DNA from: Sulfurospirillum oryzae
GTDB lineage: Bacteria; Campylobacterota; Campylobacteria; Campylobacterales; Sulfurospirillaceae
Reading direction: 5' to 3'
Length of the DNA: 64,000 bases
Assembly: GCF_025770725.1 (NCBI RefSeq)
Contig: NZ_JANZKZ010000002.1
Coordinates: forward strand, 496,001-560,000
Program-made: the position numbers and the translations under genes
Notes under the pieces: model-generated
What the model was told of the DNA's origin: nothing
Database searches by the model: none
Seen by the model: the letters and a program-made list of their open reading frames with translations, nothing else
Part shown: piece by piece, positions 61,995 to 64,000 of the stretch
Numbering within the stretch: the stretch's first letter is position 1
Layout: each line of letters opens with the position of its first letter

Positions 61995-63332
61995 TTACTT
62001 TCCAAGGCAAAAGCTACTAAACATCTTTTCTAAAATCTCATCGCGTTCAAAGGCAGTGGTAATGGAAGAGATACTTGTAATAGCTTCATTGATGTGAAAG
62101 GCAAAGAGTTCTAACTCACCCTCACCTAACCTCGCATAAGAGCTTTGAACATTCTCATACGCTTTTTTCACCGCTTCAATCTGCCTTGTAGAAGTCAGCA
62201 TAATGCTATCTTCAACAGCAGTTTGATCTAAAATCCTTTGCAGTTTTTGCGTTAGTTCATAGCTATCATTTTGGCATGAAAGTGCGATAAAATCTGTCCC
62301 TAAATGCTTTGTATCAAACTGATTGGGTAAGTCAATCTTATTGAGCACCATTAAGATTTGTTTAGAATCTGCATAATTTTGAAGTAATGCCAACATCTCT
62401 TCATCTTCGTGGTCACACTCTTTGCTATTGTCAAACAGTGCAATGACGATTTCAGACTCTTCAATGGCAGCAATTGAACGCTCAATGCCAATTTTTTCAA
62501 TCACATCATGTGCTTGCCTAATGCCTGCCGTATCGACAATACGCGCTAAATGCGTACCGATACGAAGCTCTTCTTCAATCGTATCACGCGTTGTTCCTGC
62601 AATGTCGCTAATGATAGCTCGATCATAACTTAAAAGCGTATTGAGAAGTGAGCTTTTACCCACATTTGGCTTACCCACAATCGCTATTTTAAACCCCTGC
62701 ATAAGCCCTTGTCGTCTTTGGCTACTTTCATACGTTTTGAAAAGCTCTTGTGCAAGAAGGTCAAGCTTGTTTTTGATCTTTTCGATCATATCAAGCGGTA
62801 AGTCTTCCTCAGCATAATCAATATTTACTTCAACAAACGCCAAAATTTCGATCAATTGTTCTCTTACATGTAAAACAAAATTACGTAGTTCACCTTTGAG
62901 CTGGCGTGTGAGCATTTTTGCGGCATCAGCACTTTTTGTTTCAATGAGGGCAGCAATGGCTTCAGCTTCACTCAGATCAATACGACCATTCAAAAAAGCT
63001 CGCTTGGAAAACTCACCTGGATTGGCGAGCCTTGCACCATGATGAATGAGTGTTTCTAAAACAAGTCCTGCAACAACACTACCACCATGACATTGAAACT
63101 CCACAACATCTTCTGCCGTGAAGCTGTATGGTGCTTTAAAGTAGATAACAAGGGCTTGGTCGATTGCTTCATTTAAGTGATCATGTAAAAAACAGAGTGT
63201 TGCAACACGAGGAGTAAACGTCTCTTTGTGAGAGAGTTTATGAGCCAATGCAAGGGCGTTAGGTCCACTGACACGAATAATCGCGATGGAGCCAACGCCC
63301 GCACTGGTGGCTATTGCAGCAATAGTATCTAT
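61995..63332 (-). CDS. mnmE: tRNA modification GTPase MnmE with apparent AUA start
   Basis: With MnmG adds cmnm5/cmnm5s2 groups to wobble U34 of tRNAs. 445 residues: N-terminal formyl-THF-binding domain (DTIAAIATSAGVGSIAIIRVSG), helical domain, and an inserted G domain (IVGKPNVGKSSLLNTLL, IAGTTRDTIEE, VDTAGIR, NKID), and the C-terminal CFCLGK-like end (SSFCLGK). The conserved N-terminus can be reached only from an ATA codon at 63330-63332 (ATAG overlap with the jag stop, AGGA 7 nt upstream), since an in-frame TAG lies 4 codons before ATA and the first ATG/GTG/TTG start is TTG at 63248. The true initiation codon is the uncertain part. Confidence 0.9.
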   Translation of the reverse strand: MDTIAAIATSAGVGSIAIIRVSGPNALALAHKLSHKETFTPRVATLCFLHDHLNEAIDQALVIYFKAPYSFTAEDVVEFQCHGGSVVAGLVLETLIHHGARLANPGEFSKRAFLNGRIDLSEAEAIAALIETKSADAAKMLTRQLKGELRNFVLHVREQLIEILAFVEVNIDYAEEDLPLDMIEKIKNKLDLLAQELFKTYESSQRRQGLMQGFKIAIVGKPNVGKSSLLNTLLSYDRAIISDIAGTTRDTIEEELRIGTHLARIVDTAGIRQAHDVIEKIGIERSIAAIEESEIVIALFDNSKECDHEDEEMLALLQNYADSKQILMVLNKIDLPNQFDTKHLGTDFIALSCQNDSYELTQKLQRILDQTAVEDSIMLTSTRQIEAVKKAYENVQSSYARLGEGELELFAFHINEAITSISSITTAFERDEILEKMFSSFCLGK

Positions 63333-64000
63333 GCGTTTTTCCTATTGAAATCATTGACAACGATAAATTTACCGCCATCTTTTCCTGATTTAATACCTAC
63401 ATATTTTTCAGGAAATTGTGCGCGAAGTGCTTCAAGAGCAATTTTAATCAACACGCCATCTAAAATTTTCGTTTGACCTTTTCCGCTGTTGCGAATACGT
63501 TCAATCACAGGACAAAGATATTTTTCAATCATCTCTTCTTGATTTTTCAAAAATTCGGCAATTTCAAGACGAATATTAAGACCATATTTTAAATTAATCC
63601 AGTTGTAAAGTAGATAAGAGAGTGCTTTATAACGATACCCCTCTTTTCCAATCAACAATGCTGCGTCTTCACCGCTAAATTCGATTAAAATCGTGTCATC
63701 ATTGTATTTAGAAACCGTTGGGCTTTCAAGCGAAAAACAGCTGTATTTAAAGAGGTTTTTAATTTGTACACGCACTTCATCAATGACATCGTTTAATTCA
63801 CGTTTCTCATGATGAAAATTTTGATCAATTGAAGTTGAAGCAACGCTATGTCTTACTTCTCTCATTGGAGCAGCTTTTGGCGTCTCTGGCTTGAGAGGCT
63901 CAACACGTGGAGCCGCCATTGGAGTAGAAGTCTCTTTTGGAGGGTTGAGTGTTTCAGCACGTTTATTGGCATCTGTTAATTCACTCTTTGGAAATTCTCT
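63329..64000 (-). CDS. jag: Jag/KhpB-type RNA-binding protein (5' end beyond the window)
   Basis: The frame is open to the window edge, so the N-terminus (Jag-N domain) is missing. The visible part has a Pro/Thr/Glu-rich linker (LNPPKETSTPMAAPRVEPLKPETPKAAP), then a KH domain with GXXG-like SGEDAALLIGKEGYRYKALSYLLYNWI, and a C-terminal R3H-like region (ALEALRAQFPEKYVGIKS). Jag proteins bind RNA and, with yidC/mnmE neighbours, affect cell-envelope growth. TAG stop overlaps the mnmE start by 4 nt. In Campylobacter the order is yidC-jag-mnmE. Confidence 0.82.
   Translation of the reverse strand, partial: REFPKSELTDANKRAETLNPPKETSTPMAAPRVEPLKPETPKAAPMREVRHSVASTSIDQNFHHEKRELNDVIDEVRVQIKNLFKYSCFSLESPTVSKYNDDTILIEFSGEDAALLIGKEGYRYKALSYLLYNWINLKYGLNIRLEIAEFLKNQEEMIEKYLCPVIERIRNSGKGQTKILDGVLIKIALEALRAQFPEKYVGIKSGKDGGKFIVVNDFNRKNA

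Follow-up and report, generated by a model that had tools for sequence, protein, structure and literature searches.

Where does translation of mnmE begin in Sulfurospirillum oryzae? The gene lies on the minus strand, downstream of jag, in a stretch of 64,000 nucleotides that was analysed as a whole and is called the window here. Its frame contains no ATG, GTG or TTG between an in-frame stop codon and the conserved N-terminus of the product, neither in the window nor in the relatives that share its arrangement, and a sequence-only reading had proposed initiation at AUA. To our knowledge, initiation at AUA, AUC or AUU (collectively AUH) has been described for few bacterial genes. The start codons of infC, AUU in E. 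coli and AUA in S. aureus, are under IF3 autocontrol. In S. aureus, Ribo-Ret detected AUA starts with extended Shine-Dalgarno sequences (SDs) at infC and ccpN; AUA and AUU starts that have strong SDs yielded about 10% of the output of AUG there, and ccpN reached up to 30% in rich medium (PMC13009471). E. coli pcnB is mentioned in the same paper as starting at AUU (Binns and Masters 2002, as cited in PMC13009471). In the openly licensed literature, the work on S. aureus was the only precedent found for AUA starts or for non-canonical starts in mnmE, ftsK, Campylobacter or Sulfurospirillum.

Results

The jag-mnmE junction

The 445-residue product of mnmE (trmE; 61995 to 63332, minus strand), a tRNA modification GTPase, has the domains of MnmE in the expected order and all above the Pfam cut-off: TrmE_N (PF10396, 6.8e-41), MnmE_helical (PF12631, 1.9e-41) and MMR_HSR1 (PF01926, 7.9e-27). 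It matches the solved TrmE of T. maritima (1xzp_A, E-value 7.8e-90), and the C-terminal FC[IVL]GK motif is present (...FSSFCLGK), aligned with FCVGK or FCIGK of solved MnmE proteins. The upstream gene, of which the list of open reading frames places the 3' part at 63329 to 64000 (minus strand) and which runs past the window edge, is presumably jag, a name suggested by the jag-mnmE gene order and by a C-terminus, ...VVNDFNRKNA, that is common to the relatives.

On the minus strand, jag ends with ...GAT TTC AAT AGG AAA AAC GCA TAG, and the mnmE frame reads TAG (63344 to 63342) GAA AAA CGC ATA (63332 to 63330) GAT ACT ATT GCT GCA. The in-frame TAG is four codons 5' of the ATA, GAA, AAA and CGC are implausible starts, and ATA is the sole near-cognate codon between this stop and the conserved DTIAAIAT. 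The layout described by the sequence-only reading was confirmed to the base: ATA shares its TA with the jag stop codon TAG (63329 to 63331, minus strand) in a 4-nucleotide ATAG overlap (63332 to 63329), AGGA (63343 to 63340) lies 7 nucleotides 5' of the ATA inside an AGG arginine codon near the end of jag, and reading the mnmE frame gave no ATG, GTG or TTG between the stop and the MnmE domain. The relatives likewise share bases between start and stop as a 4-nucleotide ATAG or ATAA overlap, with the SD inside the upstream jag.

The first canonical start codon downstream of the ATA is a TTG (63246 to 63248, minus strand) and is the one that automatic annotation is likely to choose. Initiation there would remove 28 codons, in agreement with the earlier estimate of about 28 conserved residues, and would cost the first 29 positions of Pfam TrmE_N: the shortened protein matches this model only from position 30 onwards. 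These codons are under purifying selection: pN/pS is 0.12 for codons 2 to 13, and the ratio is 0.24 for the 27 codons that follow the ATA versus 0.31 for the next 53, which argues that the region 5' of the TTG is translated. No SD-like sequence stands 5' of the TTG (ggacctaacgccctt), and the place of this codon is not conserved, the distance to the first canonical codon ranging from 18 to 99 codons across relatives. Translation of a truncated MnmE from the TTG is extremely improbable, and we do not regard it as the real start. Met1 of Thermotoga TrmE (1xzp, MDTIVAVAT) aligns with the mnmE ATA codon.

Conservation of the ATA codon

Inspection of the same position in other strains showed ATA in all of 24 genomes: a sister genome (G024) and every genome of the genus for which mnmE was read. 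The named close relatives belong to Sulfurospirillum and include S. diekertiae and S. cavolei. A sequencing or assembly error had been considered as a refutation of the AUA start; nothing was found in its favour, and identical bases in dozens of independent assemblies, complete genomes included, reduce its probability to practically nil. The ATA is kept in the wider clade, in other genera and most of the family, and it is found in termite-gut 'Campylobacteraceae' MAGs, in UBA1877 and in families f7 (L105, L205, L207) and f22 (L206), here with ATAG or ATAA overlaps. Among 108 nonredundant mnmE rows, a canonical start is available in 57, only ATA in 49 and other codons in 2, and parsimony requires 9 changes on the MnmE tree. 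One row of family f8 (L210) was not taken as a case of convergence, because the frame upstream does not read as jag. The two rows with neither ATG, GTG or TTG nor ATA both belong to family f7; the candidate start is CTG in L208, in a CTGA overlap with jag, and CTA or ATC in L209. In one sister genus (L031, L102, L219, L220), an ATA is still present and is followed at a distance of one or two codons by ATG or GTG, which looks like an escape from an ATA ancestor and indicates that AUA is not indispensable for mnmE.

Among rows of the main clade, which are phylogenetically related so that we claim no p-value, the last jag codon varies (GCA, AAA, ACA, TCA, CAA, CCA) and nevertheless ends in A in 44 of 44; in the rest of jag, A occupies 31% of the third positions of fourfold sites. 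The jag stop in these relatives is TAG or TAA, never TGA. The SD lies in an arginine codon that reads AGG in 43 of the same 44 related rows and CGG in the remaining one, even though jag uses AGA and CGT more often for arginine; the codon is no longer AGG in 3 of the 4 sister-genus rows with ATG or GTG. The spacing of the SD does not vary in the main clade, and in 23 of 23 genomes of the genus, the GG of the SD stands exactly 10 nucleotides 5' of the ATA.

These observations also bear on a programmed −1 frameshift, which would produce a Jag-MnmE fusion with ATA as an internal isoleucine codon. The mnmE frame is indeed −1 relative to jag, and AAA AAC stands directly before the stop in the window. 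However, the heptamer G AAA AAC is a poor slip site, the possible slip window is only three codons wide, and neither the A-run nor any slippery heptamer is conserved, as the relatives have AGG AAA GCT CCA, AGG AAA ACA ACA or AGG AAG ACA AAA. A frameshift, which had been named earlier as a possible refutation, would moreover leave unexplained why a degenerate position of jag always carries A and why the SD is fixed, and we consider it very improbable. The AUA at 63332 to 63330 is, with high confidence, the start codon of mnmE, a reading supported by its conservation, the fixed SD, the constraint on the jag codons and the alignment with Met1 of 1xzp.

Other genes with AUH starts

A scan for coding potential 5' of the first ATG, GTG or TTG of genes covered 2.06 Mb (about 78%) of the 2.63-Mb genome (G000, with the window in C2) in 20-kb pieces; short N-terminal losses would go undetected by it. 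mnmE ranked top of 758 likely genes when 1.26 Mb were scanned and, with a score of 7.0, top of about 1,520 in the 2.06-Mb scan, in which ftsK (4.9) and tsaB (4.0) came next; queA was taken from a list of SD-plus-AUH sites. Pfam identified queA and ftsK. The tsaB candidate has weak similarity to TsaD, below the Pfam cut-off, and is probably tsaB. The start of queA is ATA (L255:11787, G000:C2:631787, plus strand), preceded by a GAGGA SD and downstream of a gene read as tatC. The probable tsaB starts with ATA in an ATAA overlap (L297:19159, G000:C1:619159, minus strand), ATA or ATC being conserved in families f1, f7, f10 and f11. The start of ftsK is ATC (L245:16750, G000:C2:376750, plus strand), preceded by the conserved leader TTACATGTAAAGGAT.

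At ftsK, several relatives have the palindrome TTTACATGTAAA, which could serve as the binding site of a regulator or form a stem in the 5' region; ACATGTAAAGGAT is also present 5' of an ATG gene near G000:C2:22618. Three further scan candidates with an SD plus ATH (C1:401451, C2:852834 and C2:22618) were set aside because in each a canonical start accompanied by an SD-like sequence follows downstream.

In 25 genomes, all 95 starts read for the four genes were AUH: mnmE ATA in 24; tsaB ATA in 23; queA ATA in 14, ATC in 9 and ATT in 1; ftsK ATC in 20, ATT in 3 and ATA in 1. The third base changed four times each in queA and ftsK on the tree (at least eight changes in all), never to G. AUA, AUC and AUU all encode isoleucine, and an internal isoleucine codon would show an equal drift among A, C and T in its third base. 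An internal codon is excluded in most queA rows by an in-frame stop one codon upstream and in several ftsK rows by near upstream stops; in a single queA row, a canonical codon lies no more than 15 codons 5' of the start.

The trait recurs beyond the family. In family f11, probably Campylobacteraceae, all 27 ftsK starts shown are AUH (ATT 21, ATA 4, ATC 2) after an SD of the AAGG or AGGA type, one of them (L446) with TTG as second codon, and so are 27 of 27 tsaB starts (ATA 25, ATC 2). Single genomes of f2, f4, f7, f12, f13 and f16 have ATT in ftsK; f3 has ATG and f17 TTG. In most other families tsaB starts with ATG, GTG or TTG.

These genes help to weigh the possibility that AUA, while the true start of mnmE, is not favoured by selection for its weakness: the mutation creating the jag stop would also have turned ATG into ATA, and reversion would be blocked because it extends jag. 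Codon 2 begins with G in most rows (ATA GAT or ATA GAC), so that ATG would abolish the jag stop, and the overlap thus partly explains the conservation of the third base in mnmE. However, the rows with ATAA (L016, L017, L030, L032, L107, L150, L207) keep ATA although ATGA would preserve the stop. In tsaB, a change from ATAAAA to ATGAAA would be free of cost, the upstream stop being kept as TGA, yet it was seen in none of the genomes read from f1, f7, f10 and f11, and the two f11 tsaB rows that have lost the overlap (L473, L482) carry ATC; the overlap alone hence does not account for the absence of AUG. The starts of queA and ftsK are AUH without any overlap with an upstream stop in the genus. 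A lock-in of this kind, in place of selection for weakness, is unlikely.

Among the tRNAs in 2.06 Mb, no special initiator was found; there is one initiator-like tRNA with a normal CAU anticodon, and the simplest assumption is therefore that fMet-tRNA reads AUA, with a mismatch at the third base. When infC was tested as an AUH gene, it was found to start at TTG (L225, G000:C1:784214 region), so that this genome shows no sign of the classic IF3 autocontrol through an AUH start.

Discussion

How might mnmE be translated from its AUA? The AGGA within jag, at its fixed spacing of 7 nucleotides, would position a ribosome on the AUA, where the initiator fMet-tRNA (anticodon CAU) would pair with A and U and leave the third base mismatched. 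The ATAG overlap may make the start reachable by ribosomes finishing jag, and the AUA of tsaB may likewise be helped by ribosomes ending the upstream gene. The predicted N-terminus of MnmE is fMet-Asp-Thr-Ile, (f)M-DTIAAIATSAGVGSIAIIR. By analogy with infC and pcnB, the weak start probably keeps MnmE at a low level that depends on the translation of jag and perhaps on IF3. Together with tsaB, queA and ftsK, mnmE belongs to a small set of genes of the genome that keep AUH starts. The best reading of the AUH starts is that they are deliberately weak and driven by their SDs, as in infC and pcnB, with low output and IF3 control as proposed features. We favour, with some reserve, a low MnmE output that is under selection; sensitivity of the mnmE start to IF3 is a more tentative proposal.

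The sequence-only reading had likened the mnmE start to the AUU of infC, and the likeness holds in that both are AUH starts with a strong SD, conserved and without AUG, GUG or UUG. In contrast to infC, mnmE does not encode IF3, which argues against a direct autoregulatory loop, and its start overlaps an upstream stop. As far as pcnB is described in the citing paper, it resembles mnmE in that its product modifies RNA and is held down in amount by an AUH start, a limitation that would apply to mnmE by analogy; it differs in having AUU where mnmE has AUA, and the trait described here spans a family and more, and several genes. Conserved AUH starts with an SD, extended in Staphylococcus, are also those of ccpN (AUA) and cvfC1 (AUU), but these are other genes in another phylum and context, and the output of about 10 to 30% of that of AUG is a figure for Staphylococcus (PMC13009471). 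With ATGA or GTGA coupled overlaps mnmE shares the 4-nucleotide overlap and the SD in the upstream gene, and it differs from them in its ATAG or ATAA with a non-canonical start codon. It has the sequence features of the AUH class: no canonical start, an AUH codon in register, a conserved SD spacing and a start that is not AUG across species.

Three of the four AUH-start genes (mnmE, queA and the probable tsaB) are tRNA-modification genes, an observation made post hoc.

Standard gene finders do not consider AUA, AUC or AUU as starts. Programs limited to ATG, GTG and TTG would truncate the products of mnmE, tsaB, queA and ftsK, a systematic annotation error. The AUH class could be directly tested with ribosome-profiling or N-terminomics data from Campylobacterota.

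In summary, the AUH trait extends throughout the clade, reappears in other families and is common to tsaB, queA and ftsK, and so goes beyond the original observation on mnmE. With an AUA in mnmE across a family and three partner genes, of which two keep AUH starts in a second family as well, what was an oddity would become a class of weak starts that can be tested. We tentatively suggest that Campylobacterota may have an old and functional set of AUH-start genes, comprising at least ftsK and tsaB and in some lineages mnmE and queA, which would be selected against AUG and could form a shared control class that reads the IF3 level or the fidelity of initiation, with tRNA modification enzymes over-represented in it.
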